Positions 2,051-44,201 of a stretch of DNA of 47,311 nt are shown here, piece after piece. The notes under the pieces were generated by a model, which saw nothing but the letters and a program-made list of their open reading frames with translations, made no database searches and was not told where the DNA came from. The position numbers and the translations under genes are program-made. The DNA comes from Deltaproteobacteria bacterium (lineage in GTDB: Bacteria; Desulfobacterota; Desulfobulbia; Desulfobulbales; VMSU01), in NCBI GenBank assembly GCA_021782655.1, contig JAJXUT010000007.1:1-47311 (forward strand), in the 5' to 3' direction. Positions within the stretch are counted from its first letter, which is position 1, and each line of letters starts with the position of its first letter.

Positions 2051-2635
2051 ATGCGTAAAATTATCCTCTTCCTGCTGCTCGGCTTTCTGGCCGTCAACCT
2101 CTCCGGCTGCGGCTACAACACCATCCAGGCCAACGACGAGGCGGTAACCGCCGCCTGGGGCGACGTGGAGGCCGCCTACCAGCGCCGGGCTGACCTGATC
2201 CCCAACCTGGTGGAGACGGTGAAGGGCTACGCGGCCCACGAGAAGGACACCCTGACCGCGGTCACCGAGGCCCGGGCCAAGGTGGGCCAGATCAAGGTGG
2301 GGGCCGAGGTGATGAAGGATCCCCAGGCCTTCGCCAAATTCGAGGCCGCGCAGGGGGGCTTGAGCTCCGCCCTCTCCCGGCTGATGGTGGTGGTGGAGAA
2401 ATATCCCGACCTGAAGGCCAACCAGTCGTTCCAGGACTTCCAGCACCAACTGGAGGGCACCGAGAACCGGATCAACGTCGCCCGGGTGCGCTACAACCAG
2501 GCGGTGCAGACCTTTAACACCTCAATCCGCACCTTTCCCAACAACCTGACCAACAACTTCATGCTCCACCTCTCCCGCCGGGAGCCGTTCAAGGCGGAGG
2601 CGGGTGCCGCCAAGGCCCCGAGCGTCAAATTCTGA
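2051..2635 (+). CDS. lemA: LemA family lipoprotein
   Basis: The 194-residue protein begins with a lipoprotein signal peptide: basic start, hydrophobic stretch, and lipobox LSGC with the acylated Cys near residue 20. The LemA family pattern follows: NTIQANDEAV, then AAYQRRADLIPNLVETVKGY, and a C-terminal helix with ENRINVARVRYNQAVQTFN. LemA proteins are membrane-tethered helical bundles of uncertain role. They are commonly encoded beside TPM-domain proteins, as here. An AGGAG ribosome-binding site lies just upstream. The stop codon TGA coincides with the first bases of the repeat element at 2633-2783. Confidence 0.93.
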   Translation: MRKIILFLLLGFLAVNLSGCGYNTIQANDEAVTAAWGDVEAAYQRRADLIPNLVETVKGYAAHEKDTLTAVTEARAKVGQIKVGAEVMKDPQAFAKFEAAQGGLSSALSRLMVVVEKYPDLKANQSFQDFQHQLEGTENRINVARVRYNQAVQTFNTSIRTFPNNLTNNFMLHLSRREPFKAEAGAAKAPSVKF

Positions 2636-12182: not shown

Positions 12183-12188
12183 TAACCT

Positions 12189-12303
12189 TGATGGCGTCGC
12201 AAAAATCCGATCTCCGGCGTCCGCGTCCAACAGCCGCGGGGATTGGACAGCATTGCGGGGCGGTTTTGCTTAGCCATCGGCTACCTTTTTGCGAGATCAT
12301 CAA
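12189..12303 (+). repeat. Intergenic palindromic repeat, copy 2 (short-centre form)
   Basis: The left end is TGATGGCGTCGCAAAA and the right end is CTTTTTGCGAGATCATCAA, which are inverted copies of each other. The centre has a GTCCAA/TTGGAC hairpin. It is closely similar over its full length to copy 4 at 25239-25352. It ends 19 nt before the bamD ATG at 12323. Confidence 0.88.
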
Positions 12304-12322
12304 CCTTGGGAGTCTGCGCGCT

Positions 12323-13153
12323 ATGAAGTGGGAAGGTTTGCTTGGCTGGCCAGAGGCTGGCAAAAAACTGGCCATATTGATATGTATGGCCTGCACGCTG
12401 GCCACCCTGCCGGGATGCGCGACCCTGGATGGGGTCTTCTCCTTCTTCGGGGTCGGGGGCGGCAAATCGAAGCCCACCACCCCCGATGCCCTGTCCATGC
12501 AAGCCATGGACTATTTCGAAAAGGGCGAGTACAGCGACGCGCTCAAGATCTTCAACGACATTAAGGAGCGCTTTCCGTTTAGCGCCTACAGCATGCTGGC
12601 CGAACTAAAGGCGGCGGACTGCAAGTACTACCTCAAGGATTATCCAGAGGCGGTCTCACTCTACAAGGGGTTCGCGGACAATCATCCCACCAACGAGGCC
12701 CTGCCCTACGTCCTGTTCCAGATTGGCATGTCCTACTACCAGCAGATCGACACCATCGACCGCGACCCAGGGGCCGCGACCGACGCCATCACCGCCTTCG
12801 ACAAGCAACTCAAGGCCTATCCCGACTCGCCCTACCGGGCCGAGGCCGCGGCCCGGCGTCAGGCGGCCTTGAATTTCCTGGCCAATCACGAGTACTACGT
12901 GGCCATGTTCTACATTCGCACCAATGAGCCCCCGGAGGCCGCCTCCCGCTTGCAGTACCTACTCGACACCTACCCCAAGACCTCCATCGCGGTCAAGGCT
13001 CGGAAGCTGATGGCGGAGATCAAGGCCGGCCACCCGCCCACCCGCACCTGGCGGGACTGGATCCCCGATCTCTCCCTGCCCGACTGGCATACCTTCACCA
13101 CCCTGACCCCCGCCGGGGTCAGCACCGCGGCGCCCTCCCCGACTGGGAATTAA
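12323..13153 (+). CDS. bamD: Outer membrane protein assembly factor BamD
   Basis: The 276-residue lipoprotein has a signal peptide with lipobox LPGC (Cys near residue 32). The TPR-rich BamD body follows: AMDYFEKGEYSDALKIFNDIKERFPFSAYSMLAELKAADCKYY, then DNHPTNEALPYVLFQIGMSYY, and RAEAAARRQAALNFLANHEYYVAMFY. BamD is the essential lipoprotein of the BAM complex that inserts beta-barrel proteins into the outer membrane. The frame is open for 45 codons upstream of this ATG, but that part lies in the repeat element and would bury the signal peptide, so 12323 is taken as the start. A C-terminal proline-rich tail follows the last TPR. Confidence 0.94.
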   Translation: MKWEGLLGWPEAGKKLAILICMACTLATLPGCATLDGVFSFFGVGGGKSKPTTPDALSMQAMDYFEKGEYSDALKIFNDIKERFPFSAYSMLAELKAADCKYYLKDYPEAVSLYKGFADNHPTNEALPYVLFQIGMSYYQQIDTIDRDPGAATDAITAFDKQLKAYPDSPYRAEAAARRQAALNFLANHEYYVAMFYIRTNEPPEAASRLQYLLDTYPKTSIAVKARKLMAEIKAGHPPTRTWRDWIPDLSLPDWHTFTTLTPAGVSTAAPSPTGN

Positions 13154-13428: not shown

Positions 13429-13998
13429 TTAGGGGCGCGGGAATCTGGGGTTGCCCCGGATGAAGGCCCGGGCCACCGAGCCGGGCAGCAGGTGATTGGC
13501 CGCCTGGCCGCCCAGGAGAAGAAAGTCGTCGTCGGGCAGGGTATTTCTCGCCGCCTGGGCCTTGACCAATTCGTCCTTTAGGTAGGAGATCTGTAGATTA
13601 AGATCGTCAATCTCTCGCTGGTGGGCCAGGCATTGGTCGGCCAGGGACTTATTCTCGCCGGCCAGCCGGCTTAGTTCGCCGTTTTTTTCCTCGATCAACC
13701 GCTGGTGCTCGTGGCGGCGCTCGATCATCTCGGGCCGGTCCTCGGGCGGCGGGACGGCGGCGCTCTCCACCCTTTCGGCCAGGCGCACTTGGCAGCCCTG
13801 CAACTCCTGCCTCAGCAGCTCACACTCCTCTTCCCACTTGCGGGTTAACTCCTCGCTTGCCTGCTCGCCCTTGGCGCGCTGGGATTCCCCCAGGGCCAAC
13901 AGCCGCCGACGTTCGCGCAGGAAGCGTTCTTGCAGAAAGATGAGGGTGGTTCCCGTCCCCAGGCAAAGGCCAAGGAGGACGAAGAGGATGGCTTTCAT
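13429..13998 (-). CDS. Membrane-anchored coiled-coil protein downstream of the MamK-like gene
   Basis: The 189-residue protein is not a family I recognise. Residues 3-22 form one N-terminal transmembrane segment (an anchor, with no lipobox). Residues about 23-79 and 90-150 are charged, Glu/Arg/Leu-rich, with heptad-like spacing typical of coiled coils, split by a proline-rich hinge (VPPPEDRP). The last 30 residues change character, with DDFLLLGGQAANHLLPGS and then a basic, proline-ending tail. The start is 12 bases after the MamK-like stop, so the two genes almost certainly form an operon. A role as membrane anchor or adaptor of the filament is an inference from context. Confidence 0.85.
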   Translation of the reverse strand: MKAILFVLLGLCLGTGTTLIFLQERFLRERRRLLALGESQRAKGEQASEELTRKWEEECELLRQELQGCQVRLAERVESAAVPPPEDRPEMIERRHEHQRLIEEKNGELSRLAGENKSLADQCLAHQREIDDLNLQISYLKDELVKAQAARNTLPDDDFLLLGGQAANHLLPGSVARAFIRGNPRFPRP

Positions 13999-14010
13999 GG
14001 CGGGCCGGAA

Positions 14011-15057
14011 TTAGGCCTCAGGGCCGGAGAACCCTATCTTGTCCCAGTGCTCCGGTGGCAGGTCGAGGCCGAGCTTCAAGGCCCCGGCGCAGCCGGTGAA
14101 GTCCGGGTCATCGACGCAGGTCACCTGCACCGGGCCAAAATCGCCCAACTGCCGCTCCACCATGGCCGCGATGCCCTTGAGCCGCGAACCGCCCCCGGCC
14201 AGATAGATGTTTTTTAACACCTCCGGCTGGCTCTCCGGGTCGTAACCCTTCATGATGGCCACGATATTCTCAACGATGTCCGGGACAATGCTCTCGCACA
14301 CCGCCCGGATCTCACGAGTCAAGTCGTACTCGGCGGGCTTGCCGTCCCGGCGCAGGGTCACCAGCACCGGGGCCTCGGGTTCGCCGACGAAGGCATACTG
14401 TTCCTTGATGGTACGCACCAGGTTGCGGGTGATCTGCACGTCGTAGAACTTCTGCTGAATGGCCGATTCCAGCCGTTCGTCGATGTAATCCCCCGCCTTC
14501 AGGGTGGTGATCTGATCCTTCTGGCCCGGCACCGAGCCCTTTACCCCGCAGATATCCACCGTCCCGGCCCCGATATCGACGATAATGGCGTCGCTCAACT
14601 TGTTGATGGCGTAAGCGACCATGAAGGGCTCGGAGACGATCAGGGCGGTGGACATCAACTCCCTGGCGAGCTGCAACAGCAGTTCCTTGTTGACGATCGA
14701 GGCCCGGGATGGCACCCCGATGATCCCAGCCACCGGCCCCTCAGCCCCCTGTTTCGCCTCGTTGACCACGTGCCGTAAAAGCTCCAGGGCGGCGGTGTAG
14801 TCCTTTTCGCTGCCCTCCCGGATCACCCCGTCCTCCAAGGGATGGTAAAGGGTGAGGGCGGAGCGGTGCCTTAGTGCCTCGTCGCCGAACACCTGAGTCT
14901 TGCCTAGTAATTTTATGCCTATTATGTCCTTAGGATAACCGACGATAGAGCGGGTAATCCCCTGATATCCTCGGCTGGACATCACCGCGGTGCGCGAGGT
15001 GCCGAGATCGACGCCGATGATGAGTGGTTCGTCTGTTGAGTATTGGTCGTCTGACAT
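14011..15057 (-). CDS. mamK-like: MamK-like bacterial actin
   Basis: This 348-residue actin/Hsp70-fold ATPase has phosphate-1 DLGTSRT (17-23), phosphate-2 DIGAGTVD (161-168) and adenosine motif AGGGSRLKG (287-295). The N-terminal run TSRTAVMSSRG...VGYPKDIIGIKLLGK...VFGDEA, the VSEPFMV segment and the C-terminal DPDFTGCAGALKL...LPPEHW closely resemble MamK, the actin that organises magnetosome chains. Glu143 and Asp161 sit at the positions of the residues needed for ATP turnover in Magnetospirillum MamK, and the total length is the same. The start at 15057 has AGGACGG upstream; an in-frame ATG at 15168 would add 37 unsuited residues. No other magnetosome gene is in the window, so the cargo is unknown. 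Confidence 0.88.
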   Translation of the reverse strand: MSDDQYSTDEPLIIGVDLGTSRTAVMSSRGYQGITRSIVGYPKDIIGIKLLGKTQVFGDEALRHRSALTLYHPLEDGVIREGSEKDYTAALELLRHVVNEAKQGAEGPVAGIIGVPSRASIVNKELLLQLARELMSTALIVSEPFMVAYAINKLSDAIIVDIGAGTVDICGVKGSVPGQKDQITTLKAGDYIDERLESAIQQKFYDVQITRNLVRTIKEQYAFVGEPEAPVLVTLRRDGKPAEYDLTREIRAVCESIVPDIVENIVAIMKGYDPESQPEVLKNIYLAGGGSRLKGIAAMVERQLGDFGPVQVTCVDDPDFTGCAGALKLGLDLPPEHWDKIGFSGPEA

Positions 15058-15281
15058 GATGCCGTCCTGTTCTTGATGGGAAAACCCCAGGGTCGCGACT
15101 TTGGTGGCGGGGCGGGGATGGCCATCATCCGGGCCAGGACGAACGGGAAAGGCCCGCCCCTGGGACAACTCGCACCCCTACGTTTAAGGTAAATACAATG
15201 GGGGCGCAAAGATTGTCAAGTGAATTGCGGGGTTGCTAGGCCCAAGCTTGACCGACTCGCTGACTTGCCTGGGATAACCCT

Positions 15282-15310
15282 TTGACCAAGCGGCCTGTCC
15301 ATGCTATGTT
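15282..15310 (+). promoter_or_regulatory. Sigma-70-type promoter of hemL
   Basis: TTGACC at 15282-15287 and TATGTT at 15305-15310 are separated by exactly 17 bases. Transcription would begin near 15317. This also argues against the in-frame ATG at 15301 being the start of hemL, because it would lie upstream of the transcript. Confidence 0.7.
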
Positions 15311-15375
15311 GCGACGATTTTAAGACCCTCAAGCATGGGGGCCGGGCCGCAATCCTTCCCACGGAGATTTTCCTT

Positions 15376-16668
15376 ATGAAGACAGACCTCTCGCGATCAT
15401 TCTTTCACAGGGCGCAACAGTCCATTCCCGGCGGGGTGAGCAGCCCGGTGCGGGCCTGCAAGTCGGTGGGCTGCGACCCGGTGTTCATCGAACGGGCCAA
15501 CGGCTCCAAGGTGTACGACGTCGATGGCAACGAGTACGTCGATTTTGTCTGCTCCTGGGGGCCGATGATCCTGGGCCATAATCATCCGGCGGTGGCCCGG
15601 GCGGTGACTGACGCCCTGGCCAAGGGCACCAGCTTCGGGGCACCCACCCCCCTGGAGGTGGAGTTGGCGGAGCTGGTCTGCCAGGCCATGCCCTCGGTGG
15701 AGAAGGTGCGCTTCGTCAACTCCGGCACCGAGGCCACCATGAGCGCCATCCGCCTGGCGCGGGGCTACACCAAGAAAAACGTGGTGGTCAAGTTCGACGG
15801 CTGCTACCACGGCCACGCCGACGCCTTCCTGGTGCAGGCGGGCTCCGGGGTGGTGACCCTGGGGATCCCCGGCAGTCCGGGGGTGCCGGAGGAGGTGGTC
15901 AGAAACACCATCTCCATCCCCTACAACGACTTCGCCACCCTGGAGGCGACCTTAAGCGACGCCTCCTTAAACATCGCCTGCCTGATCATGGAGCCGGTGG
16001 CGGCCAACATGGGGGTCATCCCGCCCGCCCCGGGCTTCTTGGAGAAGGTGCGCGAGCTGACCGCCCAACACGGCATCCTCCTGATCTTCGACGAGGTGAT
16101 TACCGGCTTCAGGCTGAGCCTGGGCGGGGCGCAGGCCAAGTTCAACGTCATGCCGGATCTTACCTGCATGGGCAAGATCATCGGCGGCGGCCTGCCGGTG
16201 GGGGCCTACGGCGGCAAGAAGGAGATCATGGGGCTGATCGCCCCGGAGGGGCCGGTATATCAGGCCGGCACCCTGTCCGGCAACCCCCTGGCGATGGCCG
16301 CTGGTATCGCCACCTTGCAGACCCTGGCCGCCCCCGGTTTTTATGAGCGGCTGGACGCCAAGGCCTCCGCCTTTGCCGAGGGGCTTTCGTCCCTGGCCGG
16401 CAAATACGGCCTGCCCGCCACCTTGAACCGGGTGGGCTCGGTGCTCACCGCCTTCTTCACCGAGGGCCCGGTCACCGACTTCAAGAGCGCCCTGACCTCC
16501 GATACCAAGCTCTTCGCCGCCTTTTACCGGGAGATGCTGGCCCAGGGCATCTACCTGGCGCCTTCCCAGTTCGAGGCGGCCTTTATCTCCGACGCCCACA
16601 CCCAGGCGGACCTGGATTTGGCCCTGGAAAAAACTGAATTGACGTTCAGAAAATTGGCCAAGCGGTGA
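15376..16668 (+). CDS. hemL: Glutamate-1-semialdehyde 2,1-aminomutase
   Basis: This PLP enzyme converts glutamate-1-semialdehyde to 5-aminolevulinate, the last step of the C5 route into tetrapyrroles. HemA of the same route is encoded at 26178. The 430-residue protein shows [11 protein letters not shown] near the start, [16 protein letters not shown], the cofactor-binding DEVITGFR, and the Schiff-base lysine at residue 267 in [20 protein letters not shown] precedes the ATG at 15376. The frame extends to 15301 but that part overlaps the promoter. Confidence 0.97.
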
Positions 16669-40413: not shown

Positions 40414-41430
40414 ATGGGCCTCCAAACACCCATAACGCCAACCCCCGAAGACTCCCGGCTACCCCTGGTTCGCATCGCCAAGGATTGGGACTGGCCAGAC
40501 CTGCTCCGCCAAACGCCCGGCAATCGCGGAGTCTGGGATGGAGTCCGTTTTACCACCGATAACGTTGACCAGTGCGAGGCCCTGGTGGTGCTCAACAACC
40601 GCCTGGAAACCCCAGTGCGCGCCCGTTGCCCTCCCGGACGGGTCTGGGCCTTGATGCAGGAGCCCTACATCAAGGGATTCACCGACTGGATGGCGGAAGG
40701 GCATGCGGCCTTCGACCGGGTTTACACCAACTGCCCCCCCTCATCCGACCCCAAATACCTCACCTCCCAACCGGCGATCCCCTGGCATGTCAACCGCAGC
40801 TTCGACCAACTGCTCTCCTGTCCCCAGCCGAAAAAGACCGGCACACTCTCCTGGGTGGTGGGCAACTGCCGTGACCTTCCCGGACATATGAAACGCCTTG
40901 CCTTCCTGCGCCGGGTTAGGGAAGACAAGGGCCTGGCTATCGACCTGTACGGGCGGGCGATTAAATACCTGGACGACAAGTGGGATGGCCTGGCCCCCTA
41001 CCGCTACTCCATCGCCGCCGAAAACACGGCATGGCCTGACTATTGGACGGAAAAGATCGCCGATTGCTTCCTTACCTGGACCGTACCCTTTTATCATGGC
41101 TGTCCAAATCTTGAAAAATACTTCCCAGCCGATTCCTTTATCAGGATCGATATAGAAAACCCTGAACAAACAATCGCAACAATAAAAAGCTGCCTAACCA
41201 AAGATGACTGGAACCGCCGATTGCCAGCCATTGAAGAGGCAAGACGGCTGGTTATGTACGAATATCAAATCTTCCCTTTCCTGGCCGGCTTGTTAAAAAA
41301 AGAATCCCCGTTTAGCAATCAACCTAAAAGCGAACATATCGTTCCCGCTTATCAGCGCAGCATGACTACCAGGACAAGACGATTGCTCTACAAGATAAAA
41401 AAGCACTACCTGCGAGCAACCACCAGATGA
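40414..41430 (+). CDS. Glycosyltransferase family 10 (fucosyltransferase-like)
   Basis: The 338-residue protein has the GT10 C-terminal signature YRYSIAAENTAWPDYWTEKIADC followed by WTVPFYHGCPNLEKYFPADSFIRID, as in alpha-1,3/4-fucosyltransferases. The N-terminal half is divergent. It probably decorates lipopolysaccharide or a capsule with fucose or a related sugar donated by GDP. The stop overlaps the ATG of the next gene. The base composition becomes AT-richer toward the C-terminus (about 41100-41430), consistent with transferred DNA. Confidence 0.82.
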   Translation: MGLQTPITPTPEDSRLPLVRIAKDWDWPDLLRQTPGNRGVWDGVRFTTDNVDQCEALVVLNNRLETPVRARCPPGRVWALMQEPYIKGFTDWMAEGHAAFDRVYTNCPPSSDPKYLTSQPAIPWHVNRSFDQLLSCPQPKKTGTLSWVVGNCRDLPGHMKRLAFLRRVREDKGLAIDLYGRAIKYLDDKWDGLAPYRYSIAAENTAWPDYWTEKIADCFLTWTVPFYHGCPNLEKYFPADSFIRIDIENPEQTIATIKSCLTKDDWNRRLPAIEEARRLVMYEYQIFPFLAGLLKKESPFSNQPKSEHIVPAYQRSMTTRTRRLLYKIKKHYLRATTR

Positions 41431-42260
41431 AAATCAGCGTCATCATCTGTTTTTACAACCGTCTGTCCCTGCTCCCCGCCTGTCTCGATTCCTTACGCAA
41501 CTCCGCAGATCACCTTAATGAGGTGATAATCGCCGACGACGGCTCGGAAGAAGAGGTGGTGGCCGCCCTACGGTCGTTAGTTAAACAATATCCCTTCCCT
41601 ATCATCCACTCCTGGCACCCTCGGCAGGGGCCGCGCCGATCCGCCGCCAGGAACAACGGCATCCGCCAGGCTACGGGCGATTATCTCCTCTTCCTCGACG
41701 CGGATTTCGCGCTGTTGCCCGGCACGATTCACAGCCATATCGAGGCCGCCAGGCCGGGACATTTCGCCAGCGGGCGCTGCAAGTACACCACCGAAGAGCA
41801 GTGCCAAAAGATCGTTGCCGAAGGGGCCTCGGAATCCCTTCTGGAGGCCATCTACACCCAACTGCCCAACGATCCGATAGAAAAAGAACACCGCCGCTTC
41901 GTGCGCTATTCGCTCCTACGCCGGCTACGGCTGGCCCCGGCGAAGAAGGTAATGTTCGGCGGGCATTTTTCCGCCTTCAAGAAGGACATCGAGGCGATAA
42001 ACGGTTACGATGAAAACTTTGTCGGCTGGGGGGGGGAGGATTTAGACTTCGCCCTGCGCCTGGTGCGCTCTGGAGTCCTGGGCACCTCGGTGATCAAGAC
42101 CGCCCGGATGCTGCACCTGTGGCATCCGAGCGAAATGGTGGGCAAGCACTGGAAGGAAGGCGCCAACATGGGATATTTCTCACGGCGCCACATCCCGGTA
42201 GCTTGTGAAAATGGTCTGGCAAAACCGGCTTCCACCCGGTCAAATCTAATCCCGTCTTAG
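41427..42260 (+). CDS. Glycosyltransferase family 2 with GT7-like C-terminal domain
   Basis: The 277-residue enzyme starts with ISVIICFYNRLSLLPACLDSL, DDGSEEE and the nucleotide-sugar/metal motif LLFLDADF, all GT2 features. Its C-terminus has GGHFSAFKKDIEAINGYDENFVGWGGEDLDFALRL, the acceptor-binding part of GT7-type (galactosyl- or N-acetylgalactosaminyl-) transferases. The sugar and acceptor cannot be read. It overlaps the GT10 gene by four bases (ATGA), so both are made together. Confidence 0.88.
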   Translation: MKISVIICFYNRLSLLPACLDSLRNSADHLNEVIIADDGSEEEVVAALRSLVKQYPFPIIHSWHPRQGPRRSAARNNGIRQATGDYLLFLDADFALLPGTIHSHIEAARPGHFASGRCKYTTEEQCQKIVAEGASESLLEAIYTQLPNDPIEKEHRRFVRYSLLRRLRLAPAKKVMFGGHFSAFKKDIEAINGYDENFVGWGGEDLDFALRLVRSGVLGTSVIKTARMLHLWHPSEMVGKHWKEGANMGYFSRRHIPVACENGLAKPASTRSNLIPS

Positions 42261-42447
42261 CTGGGGAGAATCTCATTTCTCTTGATATTGTCGCAGCAAC
42301 CAAGGGGGGAAAATAAGCCATCATCAACCACCCCTTTGTCCTCCTGACCCAACGCCAAAGGTAACCAGCAACGGCCACTGCACTTGCCGCGTTTAGCGCA
42401 ACGCTGCTCCCGCCGTCTGGTTGACCAAATTGTTAACGAGGCGTAAT

Positions 42448-42711
42448 TCATTCATAGTGTGACCACATTCTCAGCACTTTAACGACATTAAGGTCTTCTG
42501 AAACTTGATAAACTAACCGGTGCCGAATGTTGATCCGCCGTGAATAAGCGCCGGATAAATCACCAACCAATTTTTCATAAGGTGGTGGATTTTGAAATGG
42601 ATTTTCACGAATAACCATCAAAAGCGCCTGCGTTTTTTCTTTCAGATCTGCGGAATATAATTTCTGTGCATCGTTCTGGGCGTGCTTCGTGTAAACCAAT
42701 TCCCAAATCAC
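42448..42711 (-). CDS. yoeB: YoeB/Txe-type mRNA interferase toxin
   Basis: The 87-residue toxin belongs to the RelE/YoeB group, which cleaves mRNA on the ribosome. Typical parts are YTKHAQNDAQKLY at the start, NPPPYEKLVGDLSGAYSRRINIRHRLVYQV in the core, and the catalytic-type C-terminus VLRMWSHYE. The GTG start overlaps the antitoxin stop (GTGA), ensuring coupled, lower expression. The surrounding DNA is less GC-rich than the core genome. Confidence 0.93.
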   Translation of the reverse strand: MIWELVYTKHAQNDAQKLYSADLKEKTQALLMVIRENPFQNPPPYEKLVGDLSGAYSRRINIRHRLVYQVSEDLNVVKVLRMWSHYE

Positions 42712-42950
42712 CAGTCCAACTCCTTATCACATTCACTAACTGGAGTCTGCAACCCTTCCATAATGGACTCGCGCATGCCTGGAACGGACAGCAAATACAT
42801 GGTTTCTTGGATTGATGCCCAATCTTCTGTAGAGACGAGCACGGCATTATTTCGTTTGCCGGTAATGACTACCGGTTCATGGTTTATGGCCGCTTCGTCA
42901 ATGATGCGGTAGAGGTTTGAGCGTGCTTGGCTTGCCGTTAGTGTATGCAT
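42708..42950 (-). CDS. yefM: YefM-type antitoxin (Phd/YefM family)
   Basis: The 80-residue antitoxin has the Phd/YefM pattern TLTASQARSNLYRIIDEAAINHEPVVITGKRNNAVLVSTEDW and a variable C-terminal region that wraps the toxin. GGAGAAAACC directly precedes the ATG at 42950. The longer frame to 43004 would start within the promoter. It neutralises the adjacent toxin and normally represses the operon. Confidence 0.93.
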   Translation of the reverse strand: MHTLTASQARSNLYRIIDEAAINHEPVVITGKRNNAVLVSTEDWASIQETMYLLSVPGMRESIMEGLQTPVSECDKELDW

Positions 42951-42973
42951 GGTTTTCTCCTTGATTGGTATAT

Positions 42974-43004
42974 TTGCCGTACGGCAATGCGTACGTTTTG
43001 TCAA
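42974..43004 (-). promoter_or_regulatory. Promoter and palindromic operator of the toxin-antitoxin operon
   Basis: On the minus strand a perfect TTGACA lies at 43004-42999. The palindrome TTGCCGTACGGCAA at 42974-42987 falls over the expected -10 position. The core GTAC recurs just upstream in GCGTACG. Binding of the antitoxin there would block transcription. Confidence 0.55.
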
Positions 43005-43019
43005 GATGATGTAAAGCCG

Positions 43020-44201
43020 CTAACTGTTTTGTTGCCCTGGCCGGTTTGACGGTGAGAGCGCTAACAGTTGCTCATAAATGGCCGCCACCCGGGCCGCGAC
43101 CGCCTCCCAACTCAAGGCCTGGGCCGTCTTTCGGGCGCTTGCCTGCATACTTCGATAACGAGTCTGATCGCCCAGGCAACCCCAGAGCGCGGCATCGACC
43201 TGCTTCCTGTCCAACCTCTCAACCACGAAGCCGTTTTCAGCTTCCCGCACCAGATCCCTGGCCCCCACCTGACTACTGACAATGACCGGCAGAGCGGCGG
43301 CCATCGCCTCGGCCACCACCATACCAAAGGTATCAAAACCAGAGAGCAGTACCAGCAGGTCGCCAGCCTGGTAGATCGAGGCCATGTCCCGCCGCACCCC
43401 AGCGAAACAAACGGCATCCCCGATTCCCAGCTCCCCGGCCAGTTGCTTGAATTTTCTCTCCCTGCCCTTGCCGACCACCAACACCTTAACCCTCTGGCCC
43501 CAGGCCTTTTTCTTCATCCGGGAGACGGCCTCCAGCAGCAGGTCTAAGCCTTTAAGCTCAAAATTCATGGCCACAAAAAGGATAACCACATCGTCCTTGG
43601 CCAGACCCAACTCCAGCCGCAGCCCCTCCCGCGCCCCCTCCTCCCTGGGCTTAAAAAAAGCTCCATCTACCCCGGGATGAACGGTCTCCACCAAGGCGCC
43701 GGGCAAGGGATAGCTCCGCAGCAAACACGCCTTGGCCAGGGAAGATACCGGCAGCACCGCCCGGCAGGGGGTCGGCCCGGCCAGCATCCGTCTTTCCAGC
43801 CAGCAGGTGGCCAGATCAAACAGGCTTAACACCCGCTTGCCCCTTATCTCCCTAACCCAAAAACGGTGGGGCACAAAATGCTGGGAGCAGATATCGGCCC
43901 GCAGGATGCGCTCGTGGGCGTGGATGAGGGAGAAATCCCCTGCCGCCGCGATAGCCCGGCTGGCAGACCAGGCAAAGCTGAGCGGGGTTAGCCACTTGGG
44001 AAACGGGATAACCGACAGCCGGTGAAAGGTGAGCGCGGACTTAGTAGCGCCCTGCCAGGCCTGGGCAAAGACGTGCAGGTCAAAACGGGAGGTCTGGGCC
44101 AACCGCTCGGTCAGTTCCAGCACAAAACGCTCGCCGCCGCCCACCAGTCCATATTTGGGCACCACCACCGCTATCTTGGGCCGCGTTATCACCCCAGCCA
44201 T
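43020..44201 (-). CDS. Glycosyltransferase family 4 (LPS core type)
   Basis: The 393-residue GT-B enzyme begins KIAVVVPKYGLVGGGERFVLELTERLA. The C-terminal domain has VILFVAMNFELKGLDLLLEAV, the nucleotide-sugar-binding segment YQAGDLLVLLSGFDTFGMVVAEAMAAALPVIVS, and the EX7E-type region. It resembles WaaG-like core glycosyltransferases. It overlaps the O-antigen ligase gene by 13 bases and ends the minus-strand operon. Confidence 0.9.
   Translation of the reverse strand: MAGVITRPKIAVVVPKYGLVGGGERFVLELTERLAQTSRFDLHVFAQAWQGATKSALTFHRLSVIPFPKWLTPLSFAWSASRAIAAAGDFSLIHAHERILRADICSQHFVPHRFWVREIRGKRVLSLFDLATCWLERRMLAGPTPCRAVLPVSSLAKACLLRSYPLPGALVETVHPGVDGAFFKPREEGAREGLRLELGLAKDDVVILFVAMNFELKGLDLLLEAVSRMKKKAWGQRVKVLVVGKGRERKFKQLAGELGIGDAVCFAGVRRDMASIYQAGDLLVLLSGFDTFGMVVAEAMAAALPVIVSSQVGARDLVREAENGFVVERLDRKQVDAALWGCLGDQTRYRSMQASARKTAQALSWEAVAARVAAIYEQLLALSPSNRPGQQNS

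Follow-up and report, generated by a model that had tools for sequence, protein, structure and literature searches.

A conserved MamK-family actin gene and its membrane coiled-coil partner beside hemL in Desulfobulbales

The two genes at the locus and their products

The window, that is, the whole 47,311-nucleotide stretch of the deltaproteobacterial contig JAJXUT010000007.1, from a sulfur-cycling bacterium, that was analyzed, encodes an actin-like protein of the MamK family and, immediately after it, a small protein with a membrane helix and a coiled-coil stalk (Table 1). An earlier sequence-only reading of this DNA placed the pair between bamD and hemL, and Pfam matches confirm both neighbors. 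The bamD homologue is found at this place in the window and at one other family locus (L033) and is missing from most other family loci, so it is probably unrelated to the system. Scans of the mamK strand for promoters and terminators yielded nothing. Elsewhere in the window (40414–44201) there are glycosyltransferase genes, including a GT10 fucosyltransferase-like gene (40414–41430) and a gene for a GT4-type enzyme (43020–44201).

Table 1. Positions of the features of the mamK locus in the window
Feature	Positions	Strand	Description and basis
mamK-family actin-like gene, A-type copy	14011..15057	-	348 aa, ATG at 15057; profile, PDB match, tree
Probable ribosome-binding sequence AGGACGG before mamK	15062..15068	-	read from sequence
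E143 codon, ATP-turnover residue in MamK	14629..14631	-	same column and number as Magnetospirillum MamK
D161 codon, ATP-turnover residue in MamK	14575..14577	-	same column and number as Magnetospirillum MamK
Partner gene: membrane helix, coiled-coil stalk, conserved tail	13429..13998	-	189 aa; 12-bp gap, alignment, model
N-terminal membrane helix of partner, residues 4–22	13933..13989	-	hydropathy averages 2.35 across 19 residues; the stretch that follows has net charge +3
Conserved tail of partner, HLLPGSVARAFIR, residues 169–181	13456..13494	-	family consensus HYLPGSVVRxLM
hemL, divergent neighbor, marks the syntenic locus	15301..16668	+	PF00202
bamD (YfiO) homologue, convergent neighbor	12188..13153	+	PF13525

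The window protein scores 474.5 bits with the NCBIfam model for MamK (NF040964; cut-off 400 bits). The next NCBIfam families, BeeR (188.7 bits) and MreB (65.8 bits against a cut-off of 293), both fall far under their own cut-offs, which places the protein outside the MreB family, and the Pfam model for ParM scores 14 bits and no more, which places it outside the ParM/AlfA group. Its top PDB match by phmmer is Magnetospirillum MamK (5ljv; E = 7e-114); when the AlphaFold model (pLDDT 92.2) is used as a Foldseek query, the same structure ranks first (E = 9e-45, 51% identity, TM 0.90/0.96), with other actins at TM values of 0.81/0.80 (BeeR) and about 0.8 (MreB). The short strings on which the sequence-only reading was based (TSRTAVMSSRG, VGYPKDIIGIKLLGK, VSEPF, and LPPEHW) are all present in the 348-residue open reading frame, and its choice of MamK rather than MreB or ParM is borne out by the profile, the PDB match, the fold, and the tree (vide infra).

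Every nucleotide-site residue tested is kept in the window protein, including E143 and D161; these two align with Magnetospirillum MamK in both column and numbering, as that reading had stated. Mutation of these residues in actins abolishes ATPase activity (PMC5059902). Selection on the gene is strongly purifying (pN/pS 0.045 versus the nearest relative), and its G+C content is similar to that of the surrounding DNA. The sole other match of the MamK model in the window genome is MreB, a separate gene on another contig (G000:C56), so MreB is encoded alongside MamK. The window gene belongs to the MamK family of proteins; we limit the assignment to the protein family, with no magnetosome role implied, because no mam cluster surrounds the gene or was detected in the genome.

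The partner gene starts 12 bp past the mamK stop codon, forming a two-gene unit that is probably co-transcribed, and the description of a membrane coiled-coil protein as the single operon partner is supported. From the positive charge that follows the N-terminal helix and the positive-inside rule, the C-terminus is predicted to be cytoplasmic. The AlphaFold model contains two long helices (residues 2–80 and 89–153) followed by a tail, modeled with low confidence, in which short strands and one helix appear; heptad periodicity is weak in the stalk of the window protein (p = 0.4) and clear in most homologues. Neither Pfam nor NCBIfam has a family that covers the protein, and no DNA-binding domain was found in it. 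In an alignment of 21 homologues from four families, identity in the stalk drops to about 20%, while the C-terminal end is conserved (consensus GSHYLPGSVVRxLM), with H169 and P172 of the tail invariant (21/21). A fast-diverging stalk with a conserved tail is the pattern expected if a spacer connects a membrane anchor to a short docking motif, and the anatomy of the partner would fit such an arrangement.

Conservation of the locus and its tandem form in other families

We ran the MamK model on 194 genomes of the order, and 44 exceed the cut-off. In the window's family, mamK lies beside hemL and ATP-synthase genes in all nine assembled loci, which represent four genera; the catalytic residues are unbroken in all nine of these hemL-type copies, and the coiled-coil gene is next after mamK at each locus (in two, a contig end cuts the gene). 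From G071, a tenth genome of the family, only contig-end fragments of the two genes are available. The recurrence of the same gene order in independent relatives argues against the suspicion, raised alongside the sequence-only reading, that the region might be an assembly chimera. The mamK of one genome of the same genus (G046; L034:6314–7360) has an in-frame stop codon that would drop the last ~25 residues; either the sequence is in error there or the gene is truly truncated.

A profile of the partner finds near-full-length matches in 26 genomes, each adjoining a mamK, and a coiled-coil homologue is located downstream of every A-type mamK wherever the contig continues. Apart from these, the profile has genuine matches to fragments at contig ends, to a second coiled-coil copy next to mamK-B in G042, and to the decayed locus of G109. 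Among 395 genomes of the phylum, the profile identified no genuine carrier outside the order. Weaker matches from G003, G036, and G034, and from four genomes that do not belong to the order, were rejected: these are proteins of ~500–540 residues (530–540 in the latter four genomes) that match in the helical region alone and lack the tail.

The window's family has the A copy only, with its site intact. In three other Desulfobulbales families (f3, f14, and f5) the order is mamK-A, coiled coil, mamK-B, that is, two actin genes flank the coiled-coil gene. This tandem form is found in Desulfurivibrio alkaliphilus AHT2, for which the genome is complete (3,097,763 bp, one contig) and in which the three genes lie near 2,982,895–2,985,700 of the chromosome; no MamI was found in that genome, and no MamB, MamE, MamP, or MamQ beyond generic paralogues. 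D. alkaliphilus AHT2 is a cultured species described as a non-motile curved rod (PMC5016858), and magnetotaxis would be useless to a non-motile cell.

The tested residues are kept in all 16 B copies. In four f3 genomes, the A copies have lysine in place of E143, and the A copies of D. alkaliphilus and one relative have lost both D17 and D168 (D17K with D168T). The loss of catalytic residues in some A copies versus the intact B copies suggests that the tandem families assemble mixed filaments in which one subunit is regulatory. The A-type tandem copies with lost catalytic residues are among loci L050, L053–L056, and L059. In G109, a Desulfurivibrio relative, one open frame (L177:3795–4487, reverse strand) joins fragments of mamK-A, the coiled-coil gene (with a HYLPG tail), and mamK-B; this is apparently a collapsed tandem locus or an assembly artefact.

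Magnetosome genes and the ancestry of the hemL-linked mamK

The searches for magnetosome markers covered five proteins, MamI, MamB, MamE, MamP, and MamQ. No mam gene besides mamK was found in the window, including the flanks of mamK, in agreement with the sequence-only reading. A search of the rest of the genome had been proposed with that reading, and for the five markers the outcome is the same: no MamI was detected, and MamB, MamE, MamP, and MamQ are absent except for generic paralogues. The same searches do detect these markers in G005, a genome from the same family, and in other cluster-bearing genomes. MamI, the specific marker, is absent from the window genome and from 10 of the 11 other genomes tested, and, with the exception of G005, the family genomes examined in addition to the window genome (seven or eight) lack all five markers.

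The matches that were discarded as generic include a weak MamQ match in the window (2051–2635), which is a LemA protein with a similar score in most relatives; the MamE and MamP matches in the window genome, which are HtrA/DegP-type proteins with PDZ domains; and a MamB match of 189.6 bits (G000:C45), which is a CDF transporter with counterparts in the cluster-free genomes of the family. No BMC shell proteins, a possible cargo, were found in 12 genomes.

G005 contains a magnetosome cluster (contig C2, about 41–86 kb; L036, L157, and L158) with three MamI-like genes, MamQ-, MamB/M-, and MamE-type genes, feoB, coiled-coil genes, and a HEAT-repeat gene. It encodes two MamKs: one is hemL-linked (contig C17) and 74% identical to the window protein; the other belongs to the cluster and is 39% identical. 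Since both are present in one genome, the hemL-linked gene is not simply the magnetosome MamK of the lineage in a new location. Magnetosome clusters also occur in two further Desulfobulbales genomes, both of family f5 (L058 in G086:C14 and L060 in G081:C29); in G081, two highly different MamK-like genes lie next to each other, and one of the pair may be Mad28.

On trees, the kind of analysis suggested with the sequence-only reading, the window protein is located within the MamK clade and apart from MreB. In a tree of 77 rows, the hemL group is a clade (support 100/99), and the hemL group together with the tandem A and B copies is also a clade (100/99) that holds, in addition, the cluster MamK of G009 and a sequence of unknown context (L052); a topology that leaves these two out is not rejected (p-AU 0.40). 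The adjacent clades are magnetosome-cluster MamKs from Nitrospinota/Nitrospirota, SAR324, Gammaproteobacteria, Alphaproteobacteria, and Magnetococcales. Because the clade sits among magnetosome MamKs, an ancient magnetosome ancestry of the window gene is likely. The MreB root is a long branch, so the position of the root is uncertain, and the direction, out of magnetosomes rather than into them, is likely but not proven.

A second non-magnetosome group, located beside a gene for N-acetylmuramoyl-L-alanine amidase, forms a separate clade (99/99), and a single origin for all of the non-magnetosome MamKs (Desulfobulbales and amidase groups) is rejected (p-AU 0.002); thus, at least two separate lineages carry MamK-family actins outside magnetosome clusters. 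The members of the amidase-linked group (L062:9020–11213, L063–L070, and most of L125–L150) are about 42% identical, adjoin and often overlap an Amidase_3 gene, and are hosted by Desulfobulbales, Nitrospirae, Rokubacteria, Aminicenantes, and Gammaproteobacteria. Some exceed the NCBI cut-off for MamK with no magnetosome genes nearby; they may represent a cell-wall actin system.

A proposed membrane-tethered MamK filament and its relation to known systems

The locus probably encodes a true MamK-type actin and a dedicated membrane anchor that act outside magnetosome biology. From its family and residues, the actin would polymerize with ATP into filaments; from genetic linkage and anatomy, the coiled-coil protein would be situated in the inner membrane and dock the filament via its tail (HYLPGSVVR), so that the filament is held along the membrane. 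The docked filament might then position or segregate a non-magnetosome cargo or shape the cell. The gene most likely derives from a magnetosome MamK that was retained without the rest of its cluster; a duplication in an ancestor of several Desulfobulbales families would have produced the A and B copies that flank the coiled-coil gene, with the window's family retaining the A copy and the anchor only, at the hemL locus. In a broader account, Desulfobulbales would have taken over a MamK cytoskeleton that originated with magnetosomes and made it an independent system, tethered to the membrane by an anchor protein of its own. Several families would have gone on to use two actins, with catalytic residues lost from some A subunits (E143K or D17K with D168T), and the filaments would now organize a structure that is not a magnetosome, also in cells that do not move. 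For this account, we consider the balance to be even.

The sequence-only reading had offered two choices, a filament for a different cargo and a displaced magnetosome gene. Recent displacement is not supported by the synteny in nine genomes, the tandem orthologues in other families, or the coexistence in G005 of the hemL-linked gene with a 39% identical cluster MamK; the filament for a different cargo is favored. A related proposal, that mamK is left over from a lost cluster or was transferred and has little or no present function, would fit the placement of the clade among magnetosome MamKs, the explanation given for mamK in non-magnetotactic bacteria (PMC5955933), the decayed locus in G109, and the stop codon in G046. 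However, strong purifying selection, conserved synteny in nine genomes, G+C content like that of the surroundings, a constant partner with a conserved tail, an intact active site, and presence in three further families contradict a loss of function, and we judge this proposal quite unlikely as a whole; its ancestry part may still hold.

Nor do we expect that the organism is magnetotactic with a cluster on missing or unrecognized contigs that is served by a distant MamK, as in the mamK-like gene of AMB-1. At 92% completeness and in 140 contigs, the assembly might conceivably have missed a cluster; AMB-1 has a second mamK outside its island (PMC2818848), and G005, in the same family, has a magnetosome cluster. 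However, the absence of the five markers recurs in the other family genomes tested besides G005, the cluster in G005 has a separate MamK, and the complete genome of the non-motile D. alkaliphilus has the A/coiled coil/B arrangement without the markers, which makes this very improbable. A membrane-tethered filament that sets or senses curvature, with no cargo moved, would agree with the curved-rod shape of D. alkaliphilus (PMC5016858), with the tracking of membrane curvature by the magnetotactic chain system via MamY or Mad28 (PMC13052382, PMC12713370), and with the failure to find a shell-type compartment as cargo; still, this is an unlikely explanation, given that MreB is also present and that just one carrier has a described shape. 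In par operons, an actin-like gene has a small partner gene downstream, and the two-gene unit resembles this organization; nevertheless, an actin for segregating a plasmid or other element (ParM/AlfA-like) is hardly credible given the MamK score, the 14-bit ParM match, a partner with a membrane helix and no DNA-binding domain found, and a chromosomal locus with conserved housekeeping neighbors and G+C content like its surroundings.

The preferred reading, a MamK-type actin with its own anchor, bears on the use of MamK as a marker for magnetosome genes: in their survey, Uzun et al. (2020; PMC7449369) selected MamK as the best protein for finding clusters in databases, and three of the genomes in which they report magnetosome clusters are from Desulfobulbales. 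The NCBI model names the window gene MamK, although no magnetosome genes are detectable in the genome, and a stable, conserved MamK system is present in organisms of this kind, one of them a cultured, non-motile species whose genome is complete. The role of a MamK filament without magnetosomes can now be tested directly, as can the question of whether the cytoskeleton of a bacterial organelle is reusable when the organelle is gone, and the conserved tail of the partner is a defined candidate for a MamK-binding peptide. In the literature searched, which left out most subscription journals, we found no report of the pairing of mamK with the coiled-coil gene or of the conserved tail, nor any of the A/B tandem or of a mamK locus linked to hemL.

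The system shares with the MamK of magnetosome clusters (Magnetospirillum, NF040964) its family score, about 50% identity, its fold, and its ATP-site residues, including E143 and D161, but it differs in lacking a mam cluster, in having a membrane coiled-coil partner in place of MamJ and mam neighbors, and in forming its own clade. MamK-like of Magnetospirillum magneticum AMB-1 (PMC2818848) is also encoded away from the main island; it shares its islet, however, with six further mam-like genes, and its host is magnetotactic; the window locus has no such genes. With reference to Lefevre et al. (2013), Lin et al. (2018; PMC5955933) state that mamK had already been noticed in non-magnetotactic genomes and give transfer or relics of clusters as the proposed explanations; ours is an observation of the same category, here of a conserved system under selection and with a partner.

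Bbp (big bacteria protein) is a MamK-related actin of giant bacteria; it occurs without magnetosomes and is also reported from Desulfobulbales (PMC10580974). By its description, it is intermediate between MamK and MreB and is encoded in an operon with a Kelch-domain protein, whereas the window protein falls within the MamK clade and its partner is a membrane coiled-coil protein, so the locus lacks both hallmarks of Bbp. Mad28, again compared by description, is the second actin of deep-branching magnetotactic clusters and forms a distinct clade; the window protein well exceeds the MamK cut-off and has no cluster. Another member of the Desulfobacterota, Solidesulfovibrio magneticus RS-1, combines MamK and Mad28 with the coiled-coil proteins Mad20, Mad23, Mad25, and Mad26 (PMC12748827); as would be the case at the window locus, actin-like proteins work there with coiled-coil proteins, but these serve magnetosomes and are encoded within the cluster. 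By analogy, the partner, which has no family match, may work similarly to MamY, the membrane anchor of the magnetosome chain in MamK-based positioning (PMC13052382).
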